A DNA stretch of 64,000 bases from Lineus longissimus (taxonomy: Eukaryota > Nemertea > Pilidiophora > Heteronemertea > Lineidae). Below the pieces are notes generated by a model that saw only the letters and a program-made list of their open reading frames with translations, was not told the DNA's origin and searched no databases. A program made the position numbers and the translations under genes. Where the stretch lies: assembly GCF_910592395.1 (NCBI RefSeq), contig NC_088312.1:22389292-22453291 (forward strand). The letters run 5' to 3'. Of the stretch, positions 1 through 64,000 are shown in pieces; within the stretch, counting starts at the first letter, position 1, and every line of letters starts with the position of its first letter.

Positions 1-2
1 AT

Positions 3-7978: not shown

Positions 7979-7992
7979 TTTTTTTAAATTTT

Positions 7993-9841: not shown

Positions 9842-9938
9842 AATAACAAGTGCTTGTGCAACAGCTTTGGCAGAGTCAAAAATCGACCTCTGTATTCATT
9901 CTTGTTATCTAAATGACATTACGATTTTATCATTCCAG

Positions 9939-10811: not shown

Positions 10812-11053
10812 CTTTTGTGACTCCTTACAACTGCTTTGTATATACAATTCCATGTAAACCTGTCCTATCAATTCAGCTCAGCTAAGTTTGTCTTCTGTGC
10901 GGCCTCAGTCTTGTGACTTATACTTAGTTCTTTTTAGATATTTTGCAGCATCTTCTCAGCAAATTCCTTACCTGCTTTCCTTCAATCAATGTACTTTTAG
11001 AATGAACTATCTACATATCTTCTTGACTTGGTCATTCTTTTGTCTAATTCCAG

Positions 11054-47190: not shown

Positions 47191-47466
47191 TCATCTTATG
47201 TGCGACATGAAACTGGTTTTGCTAGAACAGATCACATGTGTGCTCCTGTTAAACCTCTTGCCACACTCCACACATTGAAAAGGTCTGATATCTGTGTGGA
47301 GCCTCATGTGTACATTCATATTACTTTTTGCACTGAAGGTCTTCTTACAAAATGGACACTGAAATGGCCTTGTAGCAGAGTGGATTTGTTCATGCACGTC
47401 TAAGTGTCCTTGGCTTACAAATACATCTGTACAAAATTTACAGGAATAATCCTTACCAACTCGAGT
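47191..47466 (-). CDS. C2H2 zinc-finger terminal exon, last finger degenerate
   Basis: The acceptor CCCCACCTCACAG precedes 47466. Phase 0 (TRVGKDYSC) runs to the stop at 47191, 91 codons. Two complete fingers (SCKFC, QCPFC) are followed by a third that keeps CVECGKRF but has no proper His pair (THVICSSKTSFMSH). A relic of the 22457-type repeat begins within about 30 bp of the exon end, so an insertion may have damaged the last finger. It is the farthest downstream exon of the - strand array. Confidence 0.6.
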   Translation of the reverse strand, partial: TRVGKDYSCKFCTDVFVSQGHLDVHEQIHSATRPFQCPFCKKTFSAKSNMNVHMRLHTDIRPFQCVECGKRFNRSTHVICSSKTSFMSHIR

Positions 47467-48193
47467 CTGTGAGGTGGGGAGGAACACATTAGAATCAATA
47501 ATCTAACGACTGATTTAAAAGAAACATGATTATGAAGCACAGAACCTGAAATTAAACAGATCACAAAGATTTGGTCTTTCAGAATATTTATAATCGACGC
47601 TGAAATTAGGAAATAATACAAGAAAACAAAGAAACAAATAATAGACTTGTGGACCAGAGTCCGTTTCATTTGATTCATGAGACCCACTAGGTATTACCCT
47701 GAAAACCAACATGTTGACCTGTCAGACTGAACGCCCTCCAACAGTACAAGCAAAAGGGGAGACGAGGTAGTGAACAGCTCTCTCGCCTCAGGAAGGTCTG
47801 AATGCTTTTGTAAGAACACAGATTCTATGGACAATACTTCTCCAGCCTAGGCTTAATGAAGAATGGACTAAACCAGCCAAACAAAAACATTAACAAGGAT
47901 GAATTGGATGTGAATATAGATCTGAAAATTTTGTATAGAATACTGAACTTGGGCTGGCTACCGACTAGTGACAAACAGTCTCGGATATGTAGACACTGAA
48001 AAAAAGCATACAGTTTCTAAAATTGACAAGAATTTCACTGAGAACTGAATTGACCACCTAAAGCATCGAACAAGCCACAGCAGAATGAAACGAATCCAGC
48101 CCCACATCATCAGGTCCGAAGAATCACAATACCAACGGTCCCCTCCTGAGGGAATCTTTTTATCAACTTTCAAACTGCCTTTTTCACCTATCT

Positions 48194-48490
48194 CTATCTA
48201 GATAGATGACTAATCATATGCGTCTTCCTATGTGAACTATCACTGAACCCCTTCCCACAAACAGGACATTGAAATGGTTTCTCTCCGGTATGGACGCGAA
48301 CATGCTTCTTCAAGTTGCCTTTCTGCGTGAAGGTTTTACCACAGAAGGAGCACTTGAATGGCCTTTCACCAGTGTGGATACGCTGATGAGCTTCTAGCAA
48401 AAGTCTTGCTTGGAAGGTCTTATTACACCAAGAACACTTGAACACTCCTTGTACACTTCCAAGTTTTGTTGCGGAAATGATGGATGTGGT
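48194..48490 (-). CDS. C2H2 zinc-finger terminal exon (three fingers)
   Basis: The acceptor CCTTGTCTATTTTCAG precedes 48490. Phase 0 ([15 protein letters not shown]) runs to the stop at 48194, 98 codons. Fingers start at KCSWC, KCSFC and QCPVC. Finger-2 helix contacts are Q,G,N,K. Finger 3 ([17 protein letters not shown]) is identical to that of the exon at 50188-50493, which points to recent duplication or gene conversion between them. Confidence 0.8.
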
Positions 48491-49531
48491 CTGAAAATAG
48501 ACAAGGGATATTTATCAGGAATTTATTGAGTACAGATAGAACTTCATAGTGTTACGATATGAATAATAGCAATGAAATAGAACTGGACATAGATTTGTTC
48601 TGAAAAATAAAACTTGACATGAACAGCAATGATAGATAGGCTATATTTTGCAAGAATGAAACTTAAATTCGGTAAATTGGCCTTTCACGCTGGAAACACG
48701 ATGTCTGAACTCTTCACAGAACTATCTCTCCACACCACGGATATTTCATTGAATTTTGATAACTAAGACCTGGCAACAAACCAGAAACAAGGATGTTATA
48801 TTCAATTCGAATTGCCGTCTCACGCACAACAAGCAAAAGATACACTTTAAAATGACGACATAACCTGGAAACAATTTTGAGAGAAATACATGTATCGGAG
48901 AGCAAATTCAAGTATTTCAATTTGGCAAAGTTGGAACTTGACCTGAAACCTGAGCTCATCATACTCGAAGCGACTGAAAACATTGGACCATCCTAGTATG
49001 AATATAGATCAAGGAAATATGCCGTCTGCCATTTGAAGAAAACAAGTCAACAGACAAGCTGACCAGGCCTTCATCTTGACAATAACACCGCCAGGGCATA
49101 GAGTAGTCATGTGAAAGAACATGTGAACATTTCTATTTGAATTATCAGAGAACGTCTGCCCACAAATATGACAGATGAATGGCTTCTCTCCTGTGTGAAT
49201 CTGCTCATGAGTTTTGAGTGAAGGCTATACCATTGATTACATCAGACTATAAACATAAACTTGTCTTATTTTCATCAATTGCTTTGATACCAACCGAGGC
49301 CTGGGGAAATGGAGGAGGAGCACAGTATTGCTAGTGTGAAATTCACTTAAAATATCCTAAAAATGTCATGAAAGCCGGCTCCTGGACCGACCGAGAACCA
49401 AGGCATCTGAAAATAGACAAAGGAACAACCATGAACTATAAACAACCGCAAGAGGACAGAGTGAACAAGAAAATCCATGTTCAAGACCAAATAGTTGCTA
49501 ATTGTTCCTGTAACTGATGGAAAAACTGCTG
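48491..49531 (-). other. Interval with zinc-finger debris
   Basis: No intact exon. An acceptor plus exon start (TTTGTCTATTTTCAG, then ATGCCTTGGTTC) is preserved at about 49407-49430, and an isolated finger at 49105-49225, listed separately. The two are probably the ends of one deleted exon. Confidence 0.45.
49105..49225 (-). pseudogene. Zinc-finger exon fragment
   Basis: The - strand reads [20 protein letters not shown] followed by a finger 3 ([17 protein letters not shown]). The first one and a half fingers and the stop context are lost. The likely matching exon start survives upstream at 49407. Confidence 0.6.
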
Positions 49532-49837
49532 TTAATTCTTGTGAATGTACAAGTGAGTGACCTTGTGCTTCCGTAAGTTAGAATGGTCCACAAATCCTTT
49601 ACCACAAACATGACAAACAAATGGTTTCTCTCCTGTGTGAATCCTTTCATGAACTTTCCAATTGCATTTCTTAGCAAAGCCTTTTCCGCAATAAGAACAT
49701 TTGAATGGTTTTTCACCAGTGTGGATACGCATGTGAATTTCCATTTTGGTCCTGGTGGGAAAGATTTTACCACAAAGGTCACACACTGGTCGACGACCAT
49801 CACTGCCACTTCGCCAACCCCGAGACAACCAATGCAT
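49532..49837 (-). CDS. C2H2 zinc-finger terminal exon (three fingers)
   Basis: The acceptor TTTCTTTGTCTACTTTCAG precedes 49837. Phase 0 starts [14 protein letters not shown] and runs to the stop at 49532, 101 codons. Fingers start at VCDLC, KCSYC and VCHVC, with TGEKPF linkers. Finger-2 contacts are K,C,N,V, unusual in the array. The intron carries CTCCTCTTGTG 37 nt before the exon, as for the exons at 50493 and 12336. Confidence 0.82.
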
Positions 49838-50024
49838 CTGAAAGTAGACAAAGAAACAACCATGAAATAACAACCACAAGAGGAGGATGTAAGCAAAAAA
49901 AATCATGATCACAGACCCAATGGTTTTCCTGAAAAGAACAAAAAAGCTTTTACCATTCCCAAAATGTCCTTGGTATTTCGTAAGCATTTGGAAAACACTC
50001 CCCACCTATCTGATAAACATATGG

Positions 50025-50187
50025 TTTTTCTCCTGTGTGAATCTTTCAATGAAAACTCAAATTACCTCTCCAACTGAAGCCTGCACTACCTAAATGTGTG
50101 CAATAGAATATAGAACAATAAAATGGCTGCTCTCCAGTATGGACCCTAGCACAAACCTTCATACTGCCTTTCTAAGTAAAGCCTTTC
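50025..50187 (-). pseudogene. Degenerate zinc-finger sequence
   Basis: The - strand shows [13 protein letters not shown] with the finger cysteines changed. Further upstream, a frame with several stops still resembles an SY.GKAFT.KGSMK finger. This is debris between two intact exons. Confidence 0.45.
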
Positions 50188-50493
50188 CTAGTATGATTTG
50201 GGTATATGACTTATCATATGCGTCTTCCTATGTGAACTATCACTGAAGCCCTTCCCACAAAGACAACACTGAAATGGTTTCTCTCCGGTATGGACGCGGA
50301 CGTGCCTCGTCAAGTGACCTTTTTGTTTGAAGCCTTTACCACAGAAGGAGCACTTGAATGGTTTTTCACCAGTGTGGATACGCATGTGCCTTTCCACATC
50401 TGTCTTGGTGGAGAACAGTTTTCCACAAACACAACACGTCAGAGGCCCACCACAACCAACAACTTTTCTTGAATCAGCCGACAACCAACGCAT
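50188..50493 (-). CDS. C2H2 zinc-finger terminal exon (three fingers)
   Basis: The acceptor TTCCTTTGTCTCCTTTCAG precedes 50493. Phase 0 starts [14 protein letters not shown] and runs to the stop at 50188, 101 codons. Fingers start at CCVCGK, KCSFC and QCCLC. Finger-2 contacts are Q,G,H,R. The N-terminal WLSA.SR segment resembles the exon at 49837, and finger 3 equals that at 48194, so this exon looks like a mosaic of its neighbours. Confidence 0.82.
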
Positions 50494-50864
50494 CTGAAAG
50501 GAGACAAAGGAACGCCCATAAACCAACAGCCACAAGAGGAGAAAGTACACAAGATATAGTAAGTCCTAGAACCGCATGTCAAGTTTCCTGCAAAAGATCA
50601 AGGACTTTACCATAACTGGCCTGCATCTGAAAGTAGACAGAGGTACACCGCCACCACGGCACAAAGTAAGCAAAAGAACCAATGTTCCAAGCCGCAACTT
50701 TTCCTGAAAGTGATCTAAAAGGGTTGTCATAACTTTGAAAAGGTATATGAGCAGTCATGTGAGGATCTCTATTTGAACTATCAGAGAAAGCTTTCCAACA
50801 AACACGACATAAATGGCTTCTCTCCTGTGCGAATACATTTATGGCCTGTCGAGTGAGCTTTTTG
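50494..50864 (-). pseudogene. Zinc-finger debris downstream of the next exon
   Basis: At about 50745-50862 the - strand has a damaged linker (TGEKP in a shifted frame) and a finger-3-like VCWKAFSDSSNRDPHMTAH. An acceptor with exon start (TCTGTCTACTTTCAG, ATGCAGGCC) survives at about 50632 with no fingers behind it. Remnants of a duplicated exon. Confidence 0.5.
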
Positions 50865-51161
50865 CTAGGACTTCGAGAAATTCATATGAACAGTCAAGTG
50901 AGCATTTCTATTAGAACTATCAGCGAAAGCTTTCCCACAAACGCGACAAGTGAATGGTTTCTCTCCTGTATGAATACGTTCATGGCCCGTCAAGTGAGCT
51001 TTTTGTTTGAAACCTTTTCCACAGTAGGAACACTTGAATGACTTTTCACCAGTGTGGATAAGCATGTGCCTTTCCAATCTTGCATTGGTCGGAAATAGTT
51101 TTCCACAGACAAAACACATAGTGCGTCCTTCAACTTGCCGACCAGCGGACAACCGAAACAT
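50865..51161 (-). CDS. C2H2 zinc-finger terminal exon (three fingers)
   Basis: The acceptor TTCCTTTGTCTACTTTCAG precedes 51161. Phase 0 starts MFRLSAGRQVEGRTMC and runs to the stop at 50865, 98 codons. Fingers start at MCFVC, KCSYC and TCRVC. Finger-2 contacts are Q,A,H,G. The acceptor and first 36 or so exon bases are repeated three more times just upstream (see repeat 51125-51432), a feature no other exon here shows. Confidence 0.82.
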   Translation of the reverse strand: MFRLSAGRQVEGRTMCFVCGKLFPTNARLERHMLIHTGEKSFKCSYCGKGFKQKAHLTGHERIHTGEKPFTCRVCGKAFADSSNRNAHLTVHMNFSKS

Positions 51162-51432
51162 CTGAAAGTAGACAAAGGAAGAGCTATGAACTAACCACTG
51201 CGTCCTTCAACTTGCCGACCAGCGGACAACCGAAACATCTGAAAGTAGACAAAGGAAGAGCTATGAACTAACCACTGCGTCCTTCAACTTGCCGACCAGC
51301 GGACAACCGAAACATTTGAAAGTAGACAAAGGAAGAGCTATGAACTAACCACTGCGTCCTTCAACTTGCCGACCAGCGGACAACCGAAACATCTGAAAGT
51401 AGACAAAGGAAGAGCTATGAACTAACCACCAC
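51125..51432 (-). repeat. Four-copy 77-bp repeat of a 3' splice site
   Basis: The unit covers the intron end, the acceptor and the first codons of the 50865-51161 exon. Equivalent exon starts are at 51161, 51238, 51315 and 51392. The third copy has TTTCAAATG instead of TTTCAGATG, so its AG is destroyed; the second and fourth keep it. Only the first copy continues into fingers. Confidence 0.9.
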
Positions 51433-51501
51433 AAGAGGACTAAGAGCGCAAGAACACTGATATTCCATGACCAAATATTGTCCTGGTAACACACACAAGA
51501 C

Positions 51502-51792
51502 CTAGAATGTCTTTGCTTTGGGAGGGAACATTTTGTGTACATGAACCATATGTGATCGTAGAGTCGAACCATCTGAAAAGGTTTTAAAACAACACGAACA
51601 TTCAAATGGTTTTTCTCCCGTGTGTGTTCGGATATGCTTCTTAAGATTTTCCTTCTGATTGCAAGCTTTTCCACAGTACGAACACTTGAATGGCTTTTCA
51701 CCAGTGTGGACCCTTAGATGCCGATCTATGTTGAATTTTGTTCCAAAGACTTTATGGCAATGCGAGCACTCGTAAGCCGTCATACCATAGAT
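51502..51792 (-). CDS. C2H2 zinc-finger terminal exon (three fingers)
   Basis: The acceptor CACTTTCTACTTGCAG precedes 51792. Phase 0 (IYGMTAYECSHC) runs to the stop at 51502, 96 codons. The leader before finger 1 is only about seven residues. Finger 2 has cysteine for the core phenylalanine (GKACNQKENL), and contacts are Q,E,N,K. Finger 3 has a four-residue His spacing (HMVHVH). The tail is basic (FPPKAKTF). Confidence 0.8.
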   Translation of the reverse strand: MYGMTAYECSHCHKVFGTKFNIDRHLRVHTGEKPFKCSYCGKACNQKENLKKHIRTHTGEKPFECSCCFKTFSDGSTLRSHMVHVHKMFPPKAKTF

Positions 51793-52404
51793 CTGCAAGT
51801 AGAAAGTGGAACTCCCTTCAGAGCCGAGAAACAAGATTGGAAAATGTCGGCATAGTCAATATATGGTAAAGGTGATCTGGTCACATTCCTGAGTTCAACT
51901 GAACGATATGAAAAACACTATACAAGCAGTCTGTGCAAAGCCAAACAATGGCATGAATCAAATCCACTGACCTACACGTAGTTGCTAGAAATTGTGATGT
52001 ATGCCCAATGGCTGGGGGAAAATGAACTGATTCTACAAGGAGTCCATGCAAAGCAAAATAAGAGTATGAATCCACAGACCAAGGGAGTAGTATGAGACTT
52101 TACCACAAATCTGTTTGAAGTGTACCAATCAGGGTTTTGATGAGGTTAAACATGACACGAACTGGTAGGCCTTTGGCGCATGTTGAGACTCTGGCAAAGG
52201 GAACAAAATTCATGCAGAGAATTTAAAATCTGGACCAATACACGGACGGGACAGAAATTTTAAAAGCAACAGAACCATTTTGAACTGCCAACTTATCAAA
52301 ATCTTATCAAAATCGAGTAAATCCAGGAGCTGTGCTTCATAAACAGTTATCACTGACATCGCAACAGGAAAGTTAAATCTTATATGATACGATCGGTGAA
52401 ACAA
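51793..52404 (-). other. Intron-like interval
   Basis: No coding signal or recognisable repeat family. It separates the exons at 52405 and 51792. Confidence 0.4.
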
Positions 52405-52716
52405 TCAGGAGGTCAGATTGTGCCGAATGAACTTATGCTTCCGAAAGTTAGAACTATCAGAGAATGACATGTTACAGATTTGACAGTGATACGGCTTAAT
52501 GCCGGTGTGGAGCCTCGAATGAGTCTTCAAATGGGTTTTCTGTGTGAACGATTTTCCACAGTCGAGACATCTAAATGGTCTTTCTCCTGTGTGTATTCTC
52601 TTGTGTGTTTCCAAAGCCGTTTTTGACATGAAGATTTTATTGCACAAAGGACAAACAACGTAGTTTCCAGGAATTTCCAATTCAGCAAAACCGGCCTGGG
52701 ACAGATGTTGCACCAT
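52405..52716 (-). CDS. C2H2 zinc-finger terminal exon (three fingers)
   Basis: The acceptor TCTGTCTACTTCCAG precedes 52716. Phase 0 starts MVQHLSQAGFAELEIPG and runs to the stop at 52405, 103 codons. Fingers start at VCPLC, RCLDC and HCQIC. Finger-2 contacts are Q,T,H,T. Finger 3 ends H-x4-H (HKFIRH). Confidence 0.8.
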   Translation of the reverse strand: MVQHLSQAGFAELEIPGNYVVCPLCNKIFMSKTALETHKRIHTGERPFRCLDCGKSFTQKTHLKTHSRLHTGIKPYHCQICNMSFSDSSNFRKHKFIRHNLTS

Positions 52717-53318
52717 CTGGAAGTAGACAGAAGAGAGAGATTTTATTACTTGAAAGATGATTTACTATCCAATGAATAATACATGCTTGACAAGACACAA
52801 CTGGTAAACTACATCTAGTGTCCGACTTGGAACTTGTTAGCCGGTTTCCTAGCCCCAAACCTAAAAAAAGCCGCTCTCAAACCACAAGTGAACGAAAACA
52901 GCCTATTTCAATACAGCCATCTTCAAGCCAAGCAAGTTGATCAAAGTAGATTTCAAGCCTCGAGTGACAATACAACATATCTCAAGCCACGAGTGATAAG
53001 AAGGATTTCAAGCCACATGTAACACATAAGAACGGAGAAACCGACACCTCCAAGCACTGCCAGTTCCAAGAACTGCCAGATATGCGAAAACCTGAAAAAA
53101 TGTCCACACAAGAGGAATCATCACTGACAAAGCAATTGGTAAAGCTTAGGTATTAAAGCTACTGGGAATCAAAGGTTTAAATCTACTATAGATTGTAGGC
53201 ATTACAGAAGATCAACTTCAAACCCTGGGTTAGAAACGACGAACAAAGAGCTGCAGATGTCGAACAAGACAAATATACAATAAACTGGTCAAGTTCAAGC
53301 GAGGATTGGCCAACATAG
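52717..53318 (-). other. Intron-like interval with short repeats
   Basis: A loose repeat of TTCAAGCC.CGAGTGA lies at about 52920-53020. No coding signal otherwise. Confidence 0.4.
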
Positions 53319-53627
53319 CTACGTTAGCTTCATGTGCATCAGCTTGTGCCTCCGAAACGCTGAGCTATCAGCAAAACTTCTGCCACAAATCTGACATTTG
53401 TAAGGCTTTTCTCCAGTATGAATCCTCTCGTGCGTTTTCCAATGATTTTTCCAAGAGAAGCCTTTTCCACAGTATGAGCAGGTGAATGGTTTATCACCGG
53501 TGTGTGTGCGGTAATGACCCTCCAATGCCTTCTTATTCATGAAGAGCTTGGTACAAATGGGACACGCGACAGCATTTCGTGGTAAAGCTATTGGGGAACT
53601 GTGACTGATCGAGCCGGGATCAAATAT
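53319..53627 (-). CDS. C2H2 zinc-finger terminal exon (three fingers)
   Basis: The acceptor CTCTTTCTACTTTCAG precedes 53627. Phase 0 (IFDPGSISHSSPIALPRN) runs to the stop at 53319, 102 codons. There is no ATG before finger 1. Fingers start at ACPIC, TCSYC and KCQIC. Finger-2 contacts W,N,H,T are distinctive. Finger 3 carries the array-typical FADSSAFRRH helix. Confidence 0.82.
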   Translation of the reverse strand: MFDPGSISHSSPIALPRNAVACPICTKLFMNKKALEGHYRTHTGDKPFTCSYCGKGFSWKNHWKTHERIHTGEKPYKCQICGRSFADSSAFRRHKLMHMKLT

Positions 53628-53921
53628 CTGAAAGTAGAAAGAGAGGGGCATCATTAACTTCAACTCATAAAACGCACCTTCTTTTATTTAGAACTTTCTC
53701 AAAATCTCCCATAACATGAATACCACAACCCGGAACACTTTCGTTGACAATCAAATTTTGCAGTCTTGCAGCAAAACTAACACAAAATGTAACTCCATCC
53801 ATACATTATTCAGTATGACTCCTGTTGGTAAACAAACTATAAACACACAAAATGAAAAAGTAGGCAGTAAAAGTAAGACAACTTCACATAAAGCTGTTGC
53901 AAATTTTTGAGTTGAAGTGCA

Positions 53922-53927
53922 TTTATT
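53922..53927 (-). terminator. Poly(A) signal AATAAA (- strand)
   Basis: TTTATT on the + strand, about 140 nt downstream of the stop of the 54066-54368 exon. It suggests that this exon can end a transcript before the next exon is reached. Confidence 0.45.
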
Positions 53928-54065
53928 TTGTAGTAAAGTGAATTTCCAAGAAGTGTCTTCTATGTAAGTGAAAAGTGTAGAAAATCAATGTTGTTTGCGA
54001 AAAAAGATATAATGCTTGTGAAGACTTGATGGTTAACAGTTGCGTTTTTACATAAAAGTAGAAAG

Positions 54066-54368
54066 TCAGAGGTGCCTCTGCTGCAAACATTTTGCCAAGT
54101 GGGCCCTCTTATTAGAGCTATCAGTAAAAGCCTTCCCACAAATGTCACACTTATAAGGCTTTTCTCCTGTATGGATCCTCTCATGAAGCGTTACGTGTTG
54201 TTTACGGCTAAAGGCCTTCCCACAGAAGGAGCACTTGAATGGTTTTTCACCAGTGTGGGTCCTGAGATGAATTTCTAGTGCACTTTTCCCGCAAAAGGGT
54301 TTTTTACAGAACGGGCAGACCTTTATATGAGTTGAAATCGCAGGCCAAATATCCAAAGAACCAGAAAC
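54066..54368 (-). CDS. C2H2/C2HC zinc-finger terminal exon (three fingers)
   Basis: The acceptor CAATTCTATTTTTCAG precedes 54368. Phase 0 ([16 protein letters not shown]) runs to the stop at 54066, 100 codons. Fingers start at VCPFC, KCSFC and KCDIC. The third ends in cysteine (RAHLAKC), making it C2HC. Finger-2 contacts are R,Q,H,L, the same class as the 54433-55689 and 59607 exons. Confidence 0.8.
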
Positions 54369-54432
54369 CTGAAAAATAGAATTGAGATGATATGTAAATA
54401 AGGTAACATAGAATTTACAAAGAGTGGCTCTC

Positions 54433-54753
54433 TCAAAAAGAGACATTTTTCAAATGAGCCAATTTTGTATGCTTTCGGGCAGCTGAAGGATCAGAAAATG
54501 CCTTCCCACAAATCTGACATTCATATGGTTTCTCTCCTGTATGAATCCTTCCATGTAACTCCACATGATCATTGCGGCGAAAACTCCTCCCACAGAATGA
54601 ACAATTGAATGGTTTTTCACCAGTGTGGATTCTCAGGTAAGATTCGAGGGAAGCTTTTCCTGGGAAGACCTTACGACAGAATGAGCATTGAGTATCAAAT
54701 AGCTTAAAACGGGGTAAAGTTGTGGCCGGCCAACCACCTGTGCAGCCAAGTAT
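54433..54753 (-). CDS. C2H2 zinc-finger exon, duplicate copy 1, finger 1 damaged
   Basis: The acceptor TCTTTCTACTTCCAG precedes 54753. Phase 0 ([19 protein letters not shown]) is open without any ATG to the stop at 54433, 106 codons. In finger 1 ([18 protein letters not shown]) the first zinc histidine has become tyrosine (TAC for CAC), so that finger should not fold normally. Fingers 2 and 3 are intact. Finger-2 contacts are R,D,H,L. It is nearly identical to the two exons just upstream. Confidence 0.7.
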
Positions 54754-54903
54754 CTGGAAGTAGAAAGAGGAAGCCCTCTTATTTACAAACGGAGCAGATC
54801 ATGATAATGACCCGAGACAGAAGACAAAATTGTACCAATGGACATATGGAAACTTGAAGCTAAAACTAAACGAAAGGTTGTATTTCTTAAACCATTGACT
54901 CCC

Positions 54904-55224
54904 TCAAAAAGGAACATTTTTCAAATGAGCCAATTTTTTATGCTTTCGGGCAGCTGAAGGATCAGAAAATGCCTTCCCACAAATCTGACATTCATATGGT
55001 TTCTCTCCCGTATGAATCCTTTCATGTAACTTCACATGTTCTTTTCGACGGAAACTCTTTCCACAGAACGAACAATTGAATGGTTTTTCACCAGTGTGGA
55101 TTCTGAGGTGAGATTCGAGGGAAGCTTTTCCTGGGAAGACCTTGCGACAGAATGAGCATTGAGTATCAAATAGCTTAAAACGTGGTAAAGTTGTGGCCGG
55201 CCAACCACCTGTGCAGCCATGTAT
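54904..55224 (-). CDS. C2H2 zinc-finger terminal exon, duplicate copy 2
   Basis: The acceptor TCTTTCTACTTTCAG precedes 55224. Phase 0 ([19 protein letters not shown]) is open to the stop at 54904, 106 codons, with no ATG at all in the frame. All three fingers are intact (CSFCRK, NCSFC, ECQIC); finger 1 keeps its histidine (ESHLRIH). Finger-2 contacts R,E,H,L differ from copies 1 and 3 (R,D,H,L) and equal those of the exon at 59607. Confidence 0.82.
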   Translation of the reverse strand: MHGCTGGWPATTLPRFKLFDTQCSFCRKVFPGKASLESHLRIHTGEKPFNCSFCGKSFRRKEHVKLHERIHTGEKPYECQICGKAFSDPSAARKHKKLAHLKNVPF

Positions 55225-55374
55225 CTGAAAGTAGAAAGAGGAAGCCCTCTTATTTACAAATCGAGCAGATCATGATAATGACCAGAGACAGAAAACAAAA
55301 TTGTACCAATGGACATATGGAAACTTGAAGCTGAAACTAAACGAAAGGTTGTATTTCTTAAACCATTGACTCCC

Positions 55375-55689
55375 TCAAAAAGGAACATTTTTCAAATGAG
55401 CCAATTTTTTATGCTTTCGGGCAGCTGAAGGATCAGAAAATGCCTTCCCACAAATCTGACATTCATATGGTTTCTCTCCTGTATGAATCCTTTCATGTAA
55501 CTTCACATGATCATTGCGTCGAAAACTCTTCCCACAGAACGAACAATTGAATGGTTTTTCACCAGTGTGGATTCTGACGTGAGATGCAAAGTCACGTTTC
55601 CCCGGTAACACTTTGCTACAGAATGAGCATGTAAAGCCCTTATATCGTGTAGAAACGTTCGTCAGCCAATCATCAGACGGACCAATGAT
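55375..55689 (-). CDS. C2H2 zinc-finger terminal exon, duplicate copy 3
   Basis: The acceptor TTGATTTCTACTTTCAG precedes 55689. Phase 0 (IIGPSDDWLTNVSTRYKGF) runs to the stop at 55375, 104 codons. Fingers start at TCSFC, NCSFC and ECQIC. Contacts in finger 2 are R,D,H,L. Finger 3 ends H-x4-H (HKKLAH). It is the nearest downstream acceptor to the candidate first exon at 55908-55928, and the phases agree. Confidence 0.82.
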   Translation of the reverse strand: MIGPSDDWLTNVSTRYKGFTCSFCSKVLPGKRDFASHVRIHTGEKPFNCSFCGKSFRRNDHVKLHERIHTGEKPYECQICGKAFSDPSAARKHKKLAHLKNVPF

Positions 55690-55859
55690 CTGAAAGTAGA
55701 AATCAAGAACCTTATATACTTCATGCAAGGAGAGACCTGGGAGTTTTACCTAATCATGCAATGCAAGGGCGGGTGCCAATCTGAGCTGAGTTCGACCCAT
55801 CTCCCTGAATCAACCAGAAAATGAAAACTATGTAAAGTCCCTAAATTTATAGAATGAGG

Positions 55860-56225
55860 AACCGGCGTTAAGAAAAATGCCAGTGGCGGCGCCACAATCG
55901 ATCGTACCTTCTGACGCCATGACGTCATTTTCTGGTCTGTTGACGTCGCATGAGGTCAATCACGGGAAACCATTGCTTACATTTTTGCACAGGATTTCAA
56001 CAACAGAAAACGTGCCCAATAACTTGCATCGCGCATATTTTCCGCAAAATTATCTTAAGAAACTGATAGCTCAATAGATTTACAACAGGAAGATGCAAAC
56101 GTCGCCGAAATCGGTCGAAAATAAGCGATCGTTTTCGGGCTCAGAAATAACATGATAATGCATTGGAAATGGAGAGTTTTGGTATGATCGATTGCAGCGC
56201 CACGCGGCGGATAAATCGCGCCGGT
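55860..56225 (-). promoter_or_regulatory. CpG-rich patch, possible promoter
   Basis: This stretch is much richer in CG dinucleotides (CGGCG, CGATCG, GACGTCA, CGCGGCGG) than the flanks. It contains a TGACGTCA-type CRE palindrome at 55920-55927 and a GTTGACGTC at 55940. CpG-rich patches in otherwise AT-rich animal DNA often mark promoters. On the - strand it would fire into the lower half of the zinc-finger array. No start-site evidence. Confidence 0.35.
55908..55928 (-). CDS. Candidate short first coding exon (MTSWRQK)
   Basis: On the - strand ATG at 55928 reads MTSWRQK and meets AAG|GTACGA at 55908/55907, leaving phase 0. That is exactly what the downstream exons (55689 and on) require. It lies in the CpG-rich patch. 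The second ATG (55920) would leave phase 1 and not fit. The donor lacks the usual GTAAGT, and the exon is only seven codons, so this is tentative. Confidence 0.3.
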
Positions 56226-56753
56226 TCCTCATTAGTAGGGGTGGATCTTGTGAAATGACATCAAACCGACAAAGAAGAAGAAGAAGACCAAATAGTATCA
56301 TGAAACCTGACCCTAAAAGCAGTAAAAGCCTCCAAGAAGCCAAGGGCAGAGCAATCCCTCTTGAATGTAACATGAAATCAAATGAGGTGGAAAGAAAGAG
56401 CACCAGCTTTGGTGGTGATCAGTGAGACGACCACCAAAAGCAGAAGTCAAACTTAAAAGCTGACTTTTTTGTTGTCTGATATCAACTACCGTACTGTATA
56501 GGTTCATCTGACTTCACACTTTAACCCAGCCTTTCCTGAAACCTTTCAGAACTCAGAAGAGCTACATGTACAATCAGAGGTGCAACCTGAGCAACCAGTC
56601 CCCATTCAAACACCTGGTTCAGAGTAAGGCAAGTTCATGAGTTTGACAAAGACCGGCCAACTGTTGGAGCCAGGGACCTCTTGACCAATAGTCGAGTGCG
56701 AGGGGTTCCCAAACCATAAGATGACAAACCTTGGATACTCTTAGATACCGGCA
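56226..56753. other. Non-coding interval
   Basis: No coding feature I can support. A + strand frame rich in arginine (around 56255-56425, from a run of AGA codons) lacks homologous features and is probably chance. Confidence 0.35.
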
Positions 56754-57053
56754 CTAAGATGGTGGTTTCAAGTGCACCAACTTATGTGATTTCAAGCTGC
56801 CGCTCTGGTTGAAAGCTCTCTGACAAATGTCACATTTATATGGTTTCTCTCCTGTATGGATTCGCTCATGTCTCTTTAAGTGGTGCTTTTCACTGAAGGC
56901 CTTTCCACAGTATGAACACCCGAACGGTTTGTTACCAGTGTGCATACGAAGGTGAGCCTCAAGTGCACTATTTTTGTGGAAATCTTGACCACAGAATTGG
57001 CAAGCATATACTCCTCGAGAAACGTCATCAGGCCAAATACCAAGTTGACATAT
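56754..57053 (-). CDS. C2H2 zinc-finger terminal exon (three fingers)
   Basis: The acceptor CCTGTTTCTACTTCCAG precedes 57053. Phase 0 ([18 protein letters not shown]) runs to the stop at 56754, 99 codons. The only methionine is inside finger 1, so translation must start upstream. Fingers start at ACQFC, GCSYC and KCDIC. Finger-2 contacts are E,H,H,R. Finger 3 has Q,G,S,S instead of the D-x-S type seen in most siblings. Confidence 0.82.
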
Positions 57054-57533
57054 CTGGAAGTAGAAACAGGAAGACCTCTTACTTAATATCAGTCTATCAG
57101 GAATTTCACAATTTGATGGAAAATTATGATAAATCTATTAATCTGCCTGGAATATGTCAAGATACAGAGTTTGAAGGTAAAATGATGCTGCTTGGACAAA
57201 GATCAGTGGTGGTTCAAGGAGAGGGTGCAGAGGGGTAGTGCCGGTCTCGTTTACAAAAAATCTTTGAAATTGACCAGGAATTTTGTTAAGGTGACCCTAA
57301 AAACTACTGAAAACTACTAAATTTCCATTAAAATTCTCAAGATTTCAAAATTTCCATCAGTTTTTCAAATCAAAAACTCTTTTTTCGTAATTTCTATTTT
57401 CGCAAAATCTGCAGAAATGAAAGTGCCTTCAAAACTTTCTCAAGGGTGCTCTCCCTGTCAAGAAACCATTAAGACCGATCAAGAGAACACAAGCTACAAG
57501 CTGATCATCCCCCTCCTGCCGAGGGGCGAGACG
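57054..57533 (-). other. Intron-like interval
   Basis: AT-rich, with A/T runs around 57250-57410. No coding signal. Confidence 0.4.
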
Positions 57534-57833
57534 CTAACATTTCAGCGTCATATGCACAACCATGTGCGACCTCAAGCTGCCACTTTGGGTAAACGCTCGG
57601 CCACAAATGTGACATTTGTACGGCTTTTCTCCCGTGTGGACACGTTCGTGTCGTTTTAGCTGATCCTTATGACTGTGGCCTCGTCCACAGAAGGAGCACT
57701 TGAATGGTTTTTCACCAGTGTGGATACGAATATGAGCCTTGAGCGCGCTGTTTTTACGGCAGTCTTTTCCGCAGAACGGGCAAACACGTCCTTCACAGAC
57801 AACACTCATGGCCAAACTATCAAGTTCATGCAA
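57534..57833 (-). CDS. C2H2 zinc-finger terminal exon (three fingers)
   Basis: The acceptor TTCCTATTTCTACTTTCAG precedes 57833. Phase 0 (LHELDSLAMSVVCEGRV) runs to the stop at 57534, 99 codons. Fingers start at VCPFC, KCSFC and KCHIC. The core phenylalanine is cysteine in finger 1 (GKDCRK) and histidine in finger 2 (GRGHSHK), which may weaken both. Finger-2 contacts are H,D,Q,R. Finger 3 (FTQSGSLRSH) groups it with the exon at 57053. Confidence 0.8.
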   Translation of the reverse strand: MHELDSLAMSVVCEGRVCPFCGKDCRKNSALKAHIRIHTGEKPFKCSFCGRGHSHKDQLKRHERVHTGEKPYKCHICGRAFTQSGSLRSHMVVHMTLKC

Positions 57834-58029
57834 CTGAAAGTAGAAATAGGAAGACCTTGTTAGGAGTACAGCCCTCAGTGATGGAAATTTATGATAAATC
57901 AGTTAAGATGTGTCCCTGGACCAACCTGAAAGATTAGAAAAAGAAGTACAGAGTTCGAACATGCTGCTGGGAACTTTTGGATCAAATTTAGTTGTTGTCT
58001 TTCAATTTTACCCCTCTAATCGGGACATA

Positions 58030-58243
58030 CAGTGGAACCCCGGTAACACGACCACTCAAGGGACCGAGGTTGAATGGTCGCGTTACCGGGGTGGTCGTGT
58101 TAGTGAAGTTGAAAATCCGTTGACAAAATGCATGATTAGGTTTTCCCACCAAAATTGTTGAACTTCAAAATATATTTCATGGTAATTAGAGAGGAAACCA
58201 TTCGGGACCGGCGATTCTTGGTTGTCATACAGGGGTTCCACTG
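58030..58243. mobile_element. 214-bp MITE with TA target sites
   Basis: Begins CAGTGGAACCCCGGTAACAC after TA (58028-58029) and ends GGGGTTCCACTG before TA (58244-58245). Internal GACCACTCAAGGGACCGAGG is partly self-complementary with GGGGTGGTCGTGTTA. Tc1/mariner-pogo type; inserted between two zinc-finger exons. Confidence 0.65.
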
Positions 58244-58344
58244 TATCTCTATTACAGACAGAACTCATCAATCTGAAGGATGTCGTTTAGAGAGGTTCTA
58301 CACTATTACACATCAGTGCATGATTTATTTAGGGATCTGTCTTA

Positions 58345-58798
<454 letters not shown>

Positions 58799-59068
58799 CT
58801 GTAAATAGAAAAGAGAAGACCCATTATAAAAGGGTGACTCGTGTGTATTTCAAACAGATCTCAGGAAAGAAGCACATTTCCTCCAATCCTTAAAGTTCCC
58901 ATACCTACAGAGAGCAAAGAATGAGTTAAATCAAAAATATATTTGTGATTGAAGTTTTAAGGAAAAGTATCATTGAGCCAAACAAGTGGAGCTGGGCATG
59001 AGACACCACAGAAAGCGTTACACGGTACAGGTGGGTGGAAGGACTACATTCATATTTCTCCAAACACG

Positions 59069-59386
59069 CTAACAGTTTTTAACATTCAAATGAACAATTT
59101 TATGAGCTCTGAGCCCAGTAGGGTCAGAAAATCTCTTCCCACAAATCTGACATGCGTATGGTTTCTCTCCTGTGTGAATCCTTTCATGCGTCTTCAGATT
59201 CCCCTTCTGAGCGAAGCCTTTTCCACAGTAAGAACACTTGAATGGCTTTTCCCTAGTGTGGACCCTCATGTGGATTTCAAGGAGATTTCTATTGTCGAAG
59301 AACTTATTACAATAGGTGCACGTCACAAGTTGGATAGGATCCCTGAACTCAACGAGCGAACTAGGAGACCAGGAATGCTGGCCGAT
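59069..59386 (-). CDS. C2H2 zinc-finger terminal exon (three fingers)
   Basis: The acceptor CTTGTATATTTGCAG precedes 59386. Phase 0 (IGQHSWSPSSLVEFRDPIQ) runs to the stop at 59069, 105 codons. Fingers start at TCTYC, KCSYC and ACQIC, with TREKPF and TGEKPY linkers. Finger-2 contacts are Q,G,N,T. Finger 3 carries FSDPTGLRAH. Confidence 0.8.
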   Translation of the reverse strand: MGQHSWSPSSLVEFRDPIQLVTCTYCNKFFDNRNLLEIHMRVHTREKPFKCSYCGKGFAQKGNLKTHERIHTGEKPYACQICGKRFSDPTGLRAHKIVHLNVKNC

Positions 59387-59606
59387 CTGCAAATATACAA
59401 GGAGAGACCCATTAAAGGGGTGCGCTGTTCGTAATTACTGGTGGTCCACGAAAATGGAAATGCAGTTATACACAATGCGGCAGTAGAGTTATTATTCCTC
59501 CATACGGGTTAAGTGTTTTGGGGTAGATATTCATTATGGGGAACGGGACCGAAGGCACAAACTCAAAATCTGCTTAAAATCAGAAATTTGACACCACTAA
59601 TGACAA

Positions 59607-59900
59607 TTAGGGCATGAAATGCGAACTCTGATGCACCGTCAAATTTGACTGAACTGAGAACAGTTTCCCACAAATACTGCATTTATATGGTCTCTCTCCC
59701 GTATGAATCCTTTCATGTAACTTTACATGTTCTTTTCGACGAAAACTCTTCCCACAGAATGAACAATCGAAAGGTTTTTCACCAGTGTGGACACGGACAT
59801 GAACCTCCAAATGGCTTTTTGAAGTGAATAACTTGTTGCAGAATGAACAGGCCATGAGGGAATCCCCCATCTGTCGACGCCAATGATCCGAAACGGACAT
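59607..59900 (-). CDS. C2H2 zinc-finger terminal exon (three fingers)
   Basis: The acceptor CCACGTTTCTACTTTCAG precedes 59900. Phase 0 starts MSVSDHWRRQMGDSLMAC and runs to the stop at 59607, 97 codons. Fingers start at ACSFC, DCSFC and KCSIC. Finger 2 (FRRKEHVKLHERIH) is the same as in the 54904 exon, so recognition at that finger should be shared. Finger 3 (FSVQSNLTVH) departs from the usual aspartate type. Confidence 0.82.
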   Translation of the reverse strand: MSVSDHWRRQMGDSLMACSFCNKLFTSKSHLEVHVRVHTGEKPFDCSFCGKSFRRKEHVKLHERIHTGERPYKCSICGKLFSVQSNLTVHQSSHFMP

Positions 59901-60125
59901 CTGAAAGTAGAAACGTGGAGAGCCATCACTGACCTGGCGAAAAACTCATCAAATGCGTCATTTAGTACTAGAGAAGGAAGGGAGAAGTGACACCAACTAC
60001 CAACAGGGCAATGAGCGTAAAGAAACACATTCAGAGAATGAAATTGGCTTACAAGAATCTGCTTGATGTAAACATGGAGCTGAAGACCAGACTCAAGCTT
60101 GAGTGCTTTAGACTTGCTACCTCAT

Positions 60126-60411
60126 GAAGAGTAGAGAGGATGACTGGCCAAAGAACAACACCATGACCACAAAGCTCTTGGGCTCTGTGCCTGCTCTCTT
60201 ATGAAGAATAGAGAGGAAGACTGGCCAAAGACCACCACCCTGACCACAAAGCTCTTGGGCTCTGTGCCTGCTCTCTTATGAAGAATAGAGAGGAATACTA
60301 GCCAAAGAACACCATCCTGACCACAAAGCTCTAGGGCTCTGTGCCTGCTCTCTTATGAAGAATAGAGAGGAATACTAGCCAAAGACCACCACCCTGACCA
60401 CAAAGCTCTGG
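60126..60411. repeat. 77-bp tandem repeat, nearly four copies
   Basis: The unit contains GAATAGAGAGGAAGACTGGC and AGCTCTTGGGCTCTGTGCC. Copies start at 60126, 60203, 60280 and 60357. It lies in the intron between exons 61133 and 59900. The 77-bp period equals that of the repeat at 51125 but the sequence is unrelated. Confidence 0.9.
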
Positions 60412-60680
60412 TAAATGAGGCAGAATCCTTTGGACAAGTTGACTTGACCGACTGTCTAGCATGCACCTAAAAACTCCCAAACACAAAACATGAAGCACTA
60501 GAGGAAAAAGAAGAGAAAAATCAACTTAATCGGTTACTGTTTTTTATATTTAGTATGTGGACATTTTCAAATTTAAGTTCAATTTTTTCAAATATTTTTA
60601 ACGAATGGAGTAGGCCTATCAAAACATTCTGTTAGGAGAAATATTTCTCTAAAATCTAAATCCACTCAATAGTTTCATGC

Positions 60681-61133
60681 CTAATGAGTTCTTTTGTGGT
60701 TCCTCAAGGTTGAAGAATCAGAAAATGTCCTCCCACACACACCACATTCGTATGGTTTCTCTCCTGTGTGGATTCTAAAGTGCCGAGTTAAGTGCTGCTT
60801 TTCAGAGAACGCTTTCCCACAGAGTGAGCACTCAAATGGTTTTTCTCCTGTGTGAATCCTTTCATGTTTAACCACTGCTTGTTTCCGAATGAAGCCTTTC
60901 CCACAGTAAGAACACTGATATGGTCTTTCTCCCGTGTGAGTCCTTTCATGCTTCACCATTGACTGTCTCCGACTATAAGCTTTCCCACAGTAAGGACACT
61001 GGTATGGTCTTTCACCAGTATGAGTGCGGAGATGAACCTTCAAATTGCCTTTTGAACTGAATAACTTTTGGCAGAATGTACAGGTCATGAGCCCATCCTC
61101 GTTTCGTTGATACCAAGGATGGTGAACAAATAT
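60681..61133 (-). CDS. C2H2 zinc-finger terminal exon (five fingers)
   Basis: The acceptor ATTTCTACTTCCAG precedes 61133. Phase 0 ([18 protein letters not shown]) runs to the stop at 60681, 150 codons, the longest in this array. Fingers start at TCTFC, QCPYC, QCSYC, ECSLC and ECGVC, all with TGERPY or TGEKP linkers. Fingers 2-4 ([23 protein letters not shown]) appear to be internal duplications. Finger 5 has the array-typical [10 protein letters not shown]. Five fingers would read about 15 bp of DNA. Confidence 0.85.
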
Positions 61134-61369
61134 CTGGAAGTAGAAATGCAGATATGAAGTATAAACTTTACTATGGATTTCTATCCTCCAAACTTTTGGT
61201 GCCATCAGGTCAAAATATATCCAGCTTGTCTCTGAAAAATATCATTATCAACGATGGATTTATACCAGGACATACATGGGTGAAAGGATGTCCCAGGTGG
61301 GGGGGGGGGGCTGATTCCACGACAACAGACAGGGGATAACTCGCATCAAAATTAGCCACCGAGGTGAAA

Positions 61370-61708
61370 TCACTGTGGGGATTGCTTATTGTAAGATTGG
61401 AGACTAGTATTAAAATGCATAATCTTGTGCTTTCTTAAAGTTGAACCATCCGAGAATCGCTTTTTACAAAGCGGGCATTCAAACGGTTTTTCTCCTGTAT
61501 GTATACGTTCATGAGTTTTCACTGCCCCTGATTGATTAAAGGCTTTAGCGCAGTAGGAACACTTGAAAGGCTTTTCCCCAGTGTGGATACGCATGTGAAC
61601 ATCTAAAAGGCTTTGTCTCCCAAAGGCTTTTTCACACAAAGAACAGCCATGTAATCGTGAGTTAGTTCCAACATTGCGTGCAGGCAAACCAGCTCGATGA
61701 CGACGCGT
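61370..61708 (-). CDS. C2H2 zinc-finger terminal exon (three fingers)
   Basis: The acceptor TTTGATTTCTACTTCCAG precedes 61708. Phase 0 (TRRHRAGLPARNVGTNSR) runs to the stop at 61370, 112 codons. The leader is basic, unlike the others. Fingers start at GCSLC, KCSYC and ECPLC. Finger-2 contacts are Q,G,A,T. A 15-residue tail (FNTSLQSYNKQSPQ) follows the last finger. Confidence 0.82.
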   Translation of the reverse strand, partial: TRRHRAGLPARNVGTNSRLHGCSLCEKAFGRQSLLDVHMRIHTGEKPFKCSYCAKAFNQSGAVKTHERIHTGEKPFECPLCKKRFSDGSTLRKHKIMHFNTSLQSYNKQSPQ

Positions 61709-62060
61709 CTGGAAGTAGAAATCAAAAGACCCTTTACTGACCAATCTATACTTCGCTGCTCTCAAACAAATTATACCTTGCAAATGACTATACAACAGGC
61801 CAAGAAGAATGAAAACAGAGAAAACAGTGTTTGAAATATGTGCAGGGATGCCTATGTGATAAGGCAAAAAGCTTGGAAATTCTTTTCTTGCAACAATCTT
61901 GTCCCTTGATCAGCAATCACTTGCACAAAAAATGCCCCTAAAACGCCTATTTACGAAAATATGAAATAAAATTCGAAGATACAAGGAGACTTGTGACATA
62001 GATCTTTTCAATCCAGCTATGGATCAACTTTAGCATTCAGACACTGACACTGCAATTCTT
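61709..62060 (-). other. Intron-like interval
   Basis: No coding signal. It carries the pyrimidine tract for the exon at 61708. Confidence 0.4.
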
Positions 62061-62372
62061 TCACTCCTTATCCATATTAATCAGTCTGTGCCTTTTACAC
62101 ACAGACCCATAAGAAAATCTTTTTCCACAGATCTGACATTCATATGGTTTCTCTCCAGTATGAATCCTTTCATGTGTATTCCTATGAACTTTCTGACTAA
62201 AGCGTTTTCCGCAGTAAGAACATTGGAATGGTTTTTCACCAGTGTGGACACGAATGTGATATTCTAAAAGCTTATTCGCAGAGAAGTCTTTACCACAAAA
62301 GGAACAGGTGTACAATCTCAACTTGGACCGAGTTTCCGCCAGTGAAATCTGCGAAGGTTGCCATATTCGTAT
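62061..62372 (-). CDS. C2H2 zinc-finger terminal exon, last histidine lost
   Basis: The acceptor TTTCTATTTGCAG precedes 62372. Phase 0 (IRIWQPSQISLAETRSKL) runs to the stop at 62061, 103 codons. Fingers start at TCSFC, QCSYC and ECQIC. Finger 3 ends CKRHRLINMDKE, with asparagine where the second zinc histidine belongs, so it may bind zinc poorly. Finger-2 contacts are Q,V,H,T. Confidence 0.78.
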   Translation of the reverse strand: MRIWQPSQISLAETRSKLRLYTCSFCGKDFSANKLLEYHIRVHTGEKPFQCSYCGKRFSQKVHRNTHERIHTGEKPYECQICGKRFSYGSVCKRHRLINMDKE

Positions 62373-62664
62373 CTGCAAATAGAAACAGAAATACCTGTTA
62401 CTGACCTAAGTTCATGAAACCAACACTTCGCAGATCACAGAAACAATGCCATACAGTTTGCATTTCATCAATGTGGCTTGAGAGAAGATATCAACAAAGA
62501 CGTACTCAGAAAAATGAAGATGAACTCTGAAAAACAAAGACAGACTCAGCAATACAGTTAACATAGTGCTTTTTGCAGATCTCTTATCACCTGACAACTG
62601 CTAGACACATTTCACCTCAGAGATTATGGGTGTGAGATCATGACACTTGAGAAAAGCCTCTCAA

Positions 62665-62973
62665 TTAGCTTTTAGGCTTCACGTGGACAATCTTATGGCG
62701 TTTATACGATGAGCTATCCGAGAATCTTCTACCACAAAGTTGACACGTATATGGTCTTTCTCCAGTATGGATCCTTTCATGGGTCCTCATGCTTGAGCTC
62801 TGAGAGAACGCCTTCCCACAGTGGCGACATGTGAATGGTTTGTCCCCAGTGTGGATCCGCAAGTGACGCTCAAGCCCTGTGCGGTCTGGAAAGACCTTTG
62901 GACACCAACTACACCTCCTAACATTTATCGCACCCAAAGGACTGTTTACAAAAGACGGCAATGGAGCTGGCAC
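62665..62973 (-). CDS. C2H2 zinc-finger terminal exon (three fingers)
   Basis: The acceptor TGCTCTGTTTTGTTTCAG precedes 62973. Phase 0 (VPAPLPSFVNSPLGAINV) runs to the stop at 62665, 102 codons, with no ATG ahead of the fingers. Fingers start at RCSWC, TCRHC and TCQLC. Finger-2 contacts are Q,S,S,T. Finger 3 carries FSDSSSYKRH. It is the most upstream intact exon of the - strand array in the window. Confidence 0.82.
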   Translation of the reverse strand: MPAPLPSFVNSPLGAINVRRCSWCPKVFPDRTGLERHLRIHTGDKPFTCRHCGKAFSQSSSMRTHERIHTGERPYTCQLCGRRFSDSSSYKRHKIVHVKPKS

Positions 62974-62999
62974 CTGAAACAAAACAGAGCAAAGTGTCA

Positions 63000-63205
63000 G
63001 GCCAAGGTCGCAAAATATCAGTAATGGTCAAGGTCACAAGTATTAGTAAAGGTCAAGATCATGAAACATCCGCAGAGTTCAAGGTAAAAAAATATCAGCA
63101 AAGGTCACAAATATCAGTAAAAGTCAAGGTAACAAAATAACAGAAAAGGTCAAGTCACAAACATCAGAAAAGGTCAAGGTCAAATATCAGAAAAGGTCAT
63201 GGTCA
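63000..63205. repeat. Degenerate tandem repeat rich in AAGGTCA
   Basis: A loose 25-30-bp unit (AAAGGTCAAGGTCACAAATA type, with ATATCAGTAAA) repeats about eight times, placing many AGGTCA hexamers on the + strand directly upstream (in gene sense) of the 62973 exon. Confidence 0.7.
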
Positions 63206-63239
63206 TCATAACCAACGTAATCTTGATCTTTTTGCAATG

Positions 63240-63502
63240 ACAATTTTTCCACAACAATATGGACTTCATGGAGGAAGTATCTTTGAAAGCTCTTCGACAC
63301 ACATGACAAACAAATGGTCTTTCTCCTGTGTGAACTCTTTAATGGCTCTTCACAAGAGCTTCCCGATTGAAGCTTTTCGTACAGCAAGAGCACTTATAAG
63401 GTTTCTCTCTTGTGTGGACCCTCATGTGCCTTTCAAAAGCACTCCTCGCGTTGAAGAATTTAGGACACGACGGATATTGGTGCCTCTCTGAACCGCCCGT
63501 GT
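63240..63502 (-). pseudogene. Broken C2H2 zinc-finger exon
   Basis: The acceptor AGGTCTTACAG precedes 63502, but the finger frame starts two bases in, out of phase with the other exons. Finger 1 has lost its first cysteine (YPSCPKFF). Finger 2 ends KSH and is followed at once by TAA before RVHTGERPFVCHVC, and finger 3 has lost its first histidine (MKSILL). Indel, stop and ligand losses together mark a pseudogene. Confidence 0.75.
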
Positions 63503-64000
63503 CTGTAAGACCTATTCCGTATTTAAAGAAAATACTGCAGTCAGGAATATGCTTTTAGCTGAGAGTATAGGCTAAGTTACAGAATGTTTCATGCCTTATC
63601 CCATGCTTTACTTCCCTATTTTCAGTTTAAAGTCGCCAATGAAAAGATACTCATGCATCCTGAGAGAGCAACCATCAATTTTAGATCAAGTCTGAAAATG
63701 GCAAAACTTCTCTAAATCCATCCATGCTAATAATGATATCCTATGCCAAAACACTAACATTTCCAAGCTTTTTAGTTTACACAGACGACAGAACGAGGAA
63801 TTATAATTACAAAAATCCTTTATTGTCTACAAATAGTTCCAAGTCTAGATTTACAAGATCAACCAAACAACATGTGAAGAGTTCCATCCCAAAATGCGAT
63901 ACACACCATATCTAACATTTTGGAGTTAACCTTATCACAGCATTACCCATATAATCGCTGATCAGTCCTCCAAATTTCAAAGCAATCTGGCCAACAGTAC
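63503..64000. other. Window edge, no gene seen
   Basis: A - strand AATAAA (TTTATT at 63819-63824) may end a transcript from beyond the window. Nothing else supportable. Confidence 0.4.

Follow-up and report, generated by a model that had tools for sequence, protein, structure and literature searches.

The stretch of Lineus longissimus chromosome 5 analysed here (64,000 nucleotides at C5:22389292-22453291, hereafter the window, in whose own numbering all positions of five digits or fewer are given) carries a long one-strand array of C2H2 zinc-finger exons of this nemertean. The array belongs to a gene that we call gene C. Our main conclusion, which we hold with a probability of about 85%, is that the window is the distal half of gene C, one member of a nemertean family of coiled-coil/finger genes, whose tails are spliced singly to a shared head. 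The window was scanned together with 200 kb of its surroundings—264 kb in all, C5:22359292-22623291—for open reading frames (ORFs) containing one or more regular C2H2 fingers, hereafter finger ORFs, and the best splice acceptor of each was picked blind to phase. Genome-wide searches covered 391,118,348 bases in 30 contigs; the published assembly is described as 391 Mb in 19 chromosomal molecules, with a chromosome 5 of 23.94 Mb (PMC8593623).

The array of terminal finger exons that the original prediction placed in the window is confirmed. The scan returned 23 finger ORFs on the minus strand, and 21 of these are intact terminal exons of 276-453 nucleotides (nt), all with a good phase-0 acceptor and their own stop. 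All ten acceptors that had been predicted were recovered. On the minus strand, with the acceptor as the higher coordinate and with three fingers unless otherwise stated, they open exons 62665..62973 (nearest to the head among the window exons), 62061..62372 (third finger without its last His), 61370..61708, 60681..61133 (five fingers), 59607..59900, 59069..59386, 58487..58798, 57534..57833, 56754..57053 and 55375..55689. Eleven more acceptors were found, those of exons 54904..55224, 54433..54753 (first finger without a His; a near copy of the preceding exon, dS 0.16), 54066..54368, 53319..53627, 52405..52716, 51502..51792, 50865..51161, 50188..50493, 49532..49837, 48194..48490 and 47191..47466. 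This last exon is the farthest from the head, and comparison with the paralogue C5:22494046(+) indicates that the end of its third finger has been replaced by unrelated sequence. For the exons at 49837, 57833 and 59900 the phase-0 acceptor was taken, the scan's first choices there (49928, 57925 and 59967, respectively) being out of phase. Three pieces on the same strand fall outside the intact count: the one-finger remnants 49009..49190 and 50579..50824, found by the scan, and a degenerate finger ORF at 63339..63554. Beyond the window, the gene C array reaches C5:22467925 rightward along the minus strand.

As had been claimed, a phase-0 acceptor is present in 21/21 window exons, and it is the scan's first choice in 18 of them. 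Of the 122 finger ORFs in the 264 kb, 106 have a first-choice acceptor in phase 0 (binomial P ~2e-34 against a null of one third, which is a rough yardstick only). The scan's first choice is also the site used in 13 of the 15 deposited isoforms that could be mapped, P0030 and P0031 being the exceptions. Two further features of the prediction stand in part. The fingers are not preceded by an ATG in 13/21 exons, and in the other eight an in-frame ATG follows the acceptor before the first finger begins; the stop follows within 14 residues of the last regular finger in 19/21, the third finger being damaged in the other two (47466 and 62372). A row of finger-only ORFs, eight of them with such an ATG, is also what would be expected if small zinc-finger genes, independent of one another and driven by their own promoters, were clustered in tandem. 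However, the 13 exons without such an ATG, the acceptor start in every exon and the deposited isoforms described below, in which several tails of a single array share one head, make such a cluster very improbable. The finger-exon acceptors often share TTTCTACTTTCAG or TTTCTAATTTCAG: a CTAAT-, CTACT- or CTATT-type motif lies in the last 22 nt of 55/107 finger-exon acceptors in the 264 kb and in 0/6 of the head exon 2 acceptors examined. The recurrence of this motif may reflect past duplication, or the motif may serve as a common splicing signal.

The shared 5' exons had been expected to the right of the window, and both are found there, on the same strand as the array and 19.9-21.5 kb beyond the window's right end (22453291). 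With a slash for the exon border, head exon 1 of gene C (C5:22474829-22474098, minus strand, 244 codons) ends RKRP/GTAAGT and head exon 2 (C5:22473777-22473163, minus strand, 205 codons) ends GGDGK/GTAGGG, both phase-0 donors. We read head exon 1 as a long coiled coil, because its hydrophobic heptad pattern beats at least 999 of 1000 shuffles in 20/20 heads. A structure model of the deposited protein P0004, built on 19 aligned sequences (mean predicted local distance difference test score, pLDDT, 63.7; predicted template modelling score, pTM, 0.28), places helices at residues 41-97 and 106-238 of exon 1, mostly at pLDDT 88-98, and leaves the exon 2 linker largely below 50. This linker bears a conserved VIEIPDSPPTLDL motif, replaced by a diverged VSDIQEPSPPLDL in P0042, one of 11 aligned heads. 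Scanned against Pfam, neither head exon of gene C gave a family above the cut-off, and thus no BTB, KRAB or SCAN. BTB has 89 matches genome-wide, only two of them on chromosome 5 (C5:309828-310067 and 310669-310968), ~0.34 Mb from the nearest head. PF00651, PF01352 and PF02023 are absent from the precomputed Pfam annotations of 62 family proteins, and no KRAB or SCAN was found in the eight of these 62 that were scanned. A head profile gave 0 matches in the PDB at E 0.1, in a search by sequence profile only, with no fold search run. A BTB head of the kind found in lola and mod(mdg4) is ruled out, there being no BTB in either head exon. The stretch VIEIPDSPP of the head resembles what we take to be a SUMO-interacting motif and, if that reading holds, it is plausible that the proteins of the gene C family are repressors.

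The joining of this head to alternative finger tails is documented by deposited proteins. Scoring the 7996 candidates that share most words with the heads, a search with the two head exons returned 61 proteins: 56 from L. longissimus, P0008 (gene B) and four metagenome ORFs. Fifteen deposited isoforms map to the 264 kb as exact exon chains—apart from the three last residues of P0034 and one residue of P0011, which are unplaced—and 15/15 are in cis, on one strand and in order. P0001-P0005 consist of head C, both exons letter for letter, and the tails at C5:22464248, 22466371, 22461401, 22458619 and 22460327, respectively. P0006-P0007 carry head G, P0009-P0011 head E, P0030-P0031 head F, P0034-P0035 head A, and P0008 head B with a tail that crosses the window's left edge. 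There are thus five tails for head C, three for E and two each for A, F and G, and the head-tail junctions are exact for five gene C exons and for five sister genes (A, B, E, F and G). A common 5' part with alternative terminal finger exons is therefore supported for gene C by five exact chains, in an animal lineage other than insects, as the original prediction had proposed. Its comparison with the combinatorial loci lola and mod(mdg4) holds for the shared head and the alternative finger tails; it fails in that the head is not BTB and that gene C is one of ~45 genes rather than a single locus. The further claim, that an exon with its own stop can have no other exon joined after it, does not hold throughout: P0011 and P0035 each join two finger exons, and in P0039, from another cluster, a transposase-type exon is followed by the finger exon next to it. 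In these sister genes the stop after the fingers is therefore not always the end of the chain. Head and tail might also be made as separate transcripts and trans-spliced, with heads drawn from neighbours or from the opposite strand. The near identity of heads C and D and the seven pairs of heads lying back to back within 4 kb would suit such shared use, and the insect analogues are described as doing it (PMC11426971, PMC4667647). The uniformly cis and ordered arrangement of the 15 mapped isoforms speaks against trans-splicing, weakly so because automatic models tend to miss it, and we regard it as improbable.

Whether the window's own exons are joined to head C in the same way, as our preferred reading of a single long cis-spliced gene proposes, has to be weighed against several observations that count against it. 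First, all five gene C tails with protein support sit between the window and the head, and 0/21 window exons were found as the ending of a deposited protein, in a database that lists one representative per 90% cluster, so that some could be hidden (P0004 alone represents eight members). The five-finger window exon used as a protein query retrieved, in the best 120 of 7207 matches, other finger proteins, mostly from vertebrates, a result that weighs neither for nor against the use of that exon. Second, isoform numbers track protein length for gene C (X2, 566 amino acids; X4, 558; X6, 550; X7, 549; X11, 541), and likewise in the four further head groups compared. Eleven window exons would give proteins of 550-555 amino acids (449 head residues plus the exon), a range in which only X5 is free; because the numbers follow length, this suggests that at most about one of these eleven is annotated for gene C. 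Third, the deposited "X" isoforms are automatic models, not reads. Fourth, the 3' ends lack an expected signature: AATAAA or ATTAAA within 400 nt after the stop occurs in 3/21 window exons, against 5/21 in the antisense of the same stretch and 3/21 upstream, and in 27/101 of all exons analysed, against 30 antisense and 32 upstream. A separate 3' end for each exon is therefore unsupported. The 101-exon set comprises the 122 finger ORFs minus those with fewer than two or more than five fingers or without a good phase-0 acceptor (score at least 1.1 and among the three best of the ORF). Moreover, the distance from a stop to the next acceptor is below 150 nt in 6/94 cases. After the stops of the same set, GT[AG]AG donors number 29/101, against 39 antisense and 20 upstream, and TGTGTT and TTGTGT are in some excess, at 24 against 4 and 13, and 27 against 8 and 13, respectively.

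These observations lend some weight to a different view, in which gene C in effect uses only the exons nearer its head, and the distal half of its array, in the window, is a reservoir whose exons are seldom used or in decay. Between the exon 2 donor and the gene C tails known from deposited proteins there are 6.8-14.5 kb, as against 20.9-36.4 kb for the window acceptors. The isoform numbering leaves the window exons little room, and besides the degenerate piece and the two remnants with a single finger, the window contains three exons in which one finger is damaged. Yet phase-0 acceptor, frame and stop have been kept in 21 of the 23 finger ORFs, and in a sister gene the tail of P0030 lies ~25 kb from its exon 2 donor. 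In addition, the ratio of nonsynonymous to synonymous divergence (dN/dS) against the paralogue of lowest dS, taken from pairs in which 80 or more codons align, lies between 0.23 and 0.54 for the 21 window exons and thus stays below 0.55 in all. Values between paralogues are no proof of the present use of each exon, however, and the ratios are rough for the many pairs in which dS approaches or exceeds 1 (maximum 1.86). A reservoir is thus possible but, in our judgement, unlikely. From their position, phase, intact frames and constraint, we infer that the window's 21 exons are used like the five supported ones.

Gene C belongs to a large family that is nearly confined to one chromosome. A search with head exon 1 gave 47 genome matches—45 on chromosome 5, one on C11 and one short fragment on C1—and two of the 45 are pieces of one broken head, which leaves ~45 heads, 44 of them on chromosome 5; the only full head outside it lies at C11:17775022-17775627. 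Seven heads (A-G) are found in the 264 kb, followed by 6, 11, 39, 17, 5, 21 and 23 finger ORFs, respectively, assigned by position and strand with remnants included. In a 25-kb sample elsewhere (C5, 11.405-11.430 Mb), a few kb behind the head at 11400019, there is again a one-strand row of finger ORFs, which includes the tails of P0037-P0039. The arrays read are therefore those of seven genes and this one sample, out of ~45 heads. The coiled-coil exon, the VIEIPDSPPTLDL exon, the phase-0 donors and the phase-0 finger-exon array were confirmed together as features of the family. Grouping 57 proteins by head at a 97% threshold gives 20 groups, a number that we do not use as a gene count, as C and D would fall into one group. 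Not every tail consists of fingers: P0036 and P0039 contain or end in a Tc5-type transposase DNA-binding domain (PF03221; exon C5:11406817-11407305), and P0042, P0058 and P0066, among eight proteins scanned, have no finger family. Seven pairs of heads, C/D included, stand back to back within 4 kb (1.3-3.7 kb apart) on chromosome 5, suggesting that they share two-way promoters.

Genes C and D look like inverted duplicates. In the self-comparison of the 264 kb (matches of at least 250 bases at E 1e-20), the last exons of the two share 88% identity across 716 bases, some of them non-coding; four more exon pairs, at 71.5-77% identity, are almost collinear, except that two neighbours have changed places. 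Their head exons (C5:22473163-22478935) are ~98% identical as DNA and 96-97% identical at fourfold sites, with differences at 3/110 such sites in exon 2 and 3/77 in exon 1, while intron 1 and the 1 kb upstream give no alignment at E 1e-3. This disparity—heads ~98% alike, tails at 71.5-88%, intron 1 and upstream sequence unalignable—suggests that the heads have been homogenised by gene conversion. The similarity does not stop sharply at the exon border, continuing beyond exon 2 at 96% for the first 53 bases and at 84% for a further 70. The tails are diverse at the positions that contact DNA (helix -1, 2, 3 and 6): 101/101 analysed finger exons differ in their set of contact residues, and there are 248 distinct contact quadruplets in 284 fingers. 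A profile of 11 heads matched 71 proteins at E 0.01 among the candidates scored: 61 from L. longissimus, P0008 and nine metagenome ORFs at 42-68% identity, on contigs of 2-21 kb, which may come from other nemerteans. No other named organism is among the profile matches listed, in a database that holds, for example, proteins of the mollusc Aplysia. This absence is not proof, because only the 7996 word-sharing candidates were scored; among the matches listed, the family thus appears so far only in L. longissimus and these ORFs. No description of it was found in open-licence papers judged by their titles and the starts of their abstracts.

The left end of the window belongs to a sister gene. Positions 1..143 (plus strand) are the end of a terminal finger exon of gene B and of P0008, as placed by its exact chain, and 481..12800 (plus strand) holds the rest of the gene B array, with ten further finger ORFs found by the scan. 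The head of gene B lies left of the window at C5:22383912, and an 11-finger ORF occupies 5065-7257 (plus strand). The gene B array on the plus strand converges on the gene C array on the minus strand, with ~34 kb between them. Two ORFs outside the arrays are a 702-codon ORF without fingers at 36110-38218 (plus strand) and a putative integrase-type ORF of 373 codons at 39723-40844 (minus strand), whose DDE look was judged by eye only.

Comparison with known systems shows both similarities and differences. In Drosophila, lola is described as having a common N-terminal part, with a TTK-type BTB domain, and different C2H2 fingers in 17/20 isoforms, and trans-splicing is reported for it (PMC11426971). 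For insect mod(mdg4), a common BTB-encoding 5' exon, at least 31 isoforms with different 3' parts, some of whose ends lie on the opposite strand, and tails that are mostly FLYWCH are described (PMC4667647). Like lola, gene C has one shared 5' part and many alternative finger-bearing 3' ends, as found in its deposited proteins and as we propose for the window exons. Unlike lola, it has a coiled-coil head without a Pfam family instead of a BTB head, it is one of ~45 genes instead of one locus, and trans-splicing, which is reported for lola, was not seen among the 15 mapped isoforms of its family, all of them automatic models. The likeness to mod(mdg4) is a common 5' exon with many alternative 3' ends. 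The differences are that the tails are C2H2 fingers, with a Tc5-type transposase domain in P0036 and P0039 of sister genes, instead of mostly FLYWCH, and that none of the 15 mapped tails is on the strand opposite its head. Membership in the lola/mod(mdg4) family (TTK-type BTB) is rejected, because the defining BTB is absent. A third parallel is offered by the vertebrate KRAB and SCAN clusters, large sets of C2H2 fingers with varied contact residues in which, as far as is known, each gene has its own head. The big clustered sets and varied contacts are shared with the nemertean genes, but here many tails share one head by splicing, and there is no KRAB or SCAN match. To our knowledge, arrays of alternative zinc-finger tails on one head are known from insects, with a BTB head. 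Here, alternative terminal fingers occur behind an unrelated head, outside the insects' phylum and in a large family nearly confined to one chromosome.

These data can be assembled into a model. Each gene has two constant 5' exons, one for the coiled coil and one for the VIEIPDSPPTLDL linker, followed by alternative terminal exons that mostly encode two to five C2H2 fingers. Transcription would start at the head, and the exon 2 donor (DGK/GTAGGG, phase 0) would be spliced to one array acceptor. As almost every finger exon begins in phase 0, this donor can join any of them, and the protein, composed of coiled coil, linker and one finger set, would end at the stop of the exon selected. In the simplest reading, the choice would be made by competition among acceptors in cis along a long transcript, perhaps according to cell type. 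The coiled coil might pair isoforms, and the linker might bind SUMO or co-repressors, as its presumed motif would suggest. A broader scenario, which we put forward tentatively and consider rather doubtful as a whole, is that nemerteans independently evolved a chromosome-wide combinatorial repertoire of ~45 head genes, 44 on one chromosome, with ~5-40 tails each (several hundred, by extrapolation from seven genes), including transposase-derived ones. Tails would turn over by duplication while gene conversion kept the heads alike, as might be expected of a repertoire engaged in an arms race, with transposable elements for example, and a KRAB-like defence would be packed into splice choices rather than separate genes.

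The meaning of this architecture is that one gene could yield many DNA-binding proteins by swapping terminal finger exons. The same solution with an unrelated coiled-coil head in ~45 genes would be a case of convergence of gene architecture. There is also a practical consequence. Automatic annotation gives single isoforms names such as Sp8-like (for example P0041, an isoform of the head family), sal-like, Krueppel-like or B-cell lymphoma 6 homolog, and such names would mislead counts of transcription factors in nemerteans. In fly neurons, a role for lola in specifying cells has been proposed (PMC1947980). The nemertean family offers a direct test between such cell specification and the following of moving targets such as transposons.

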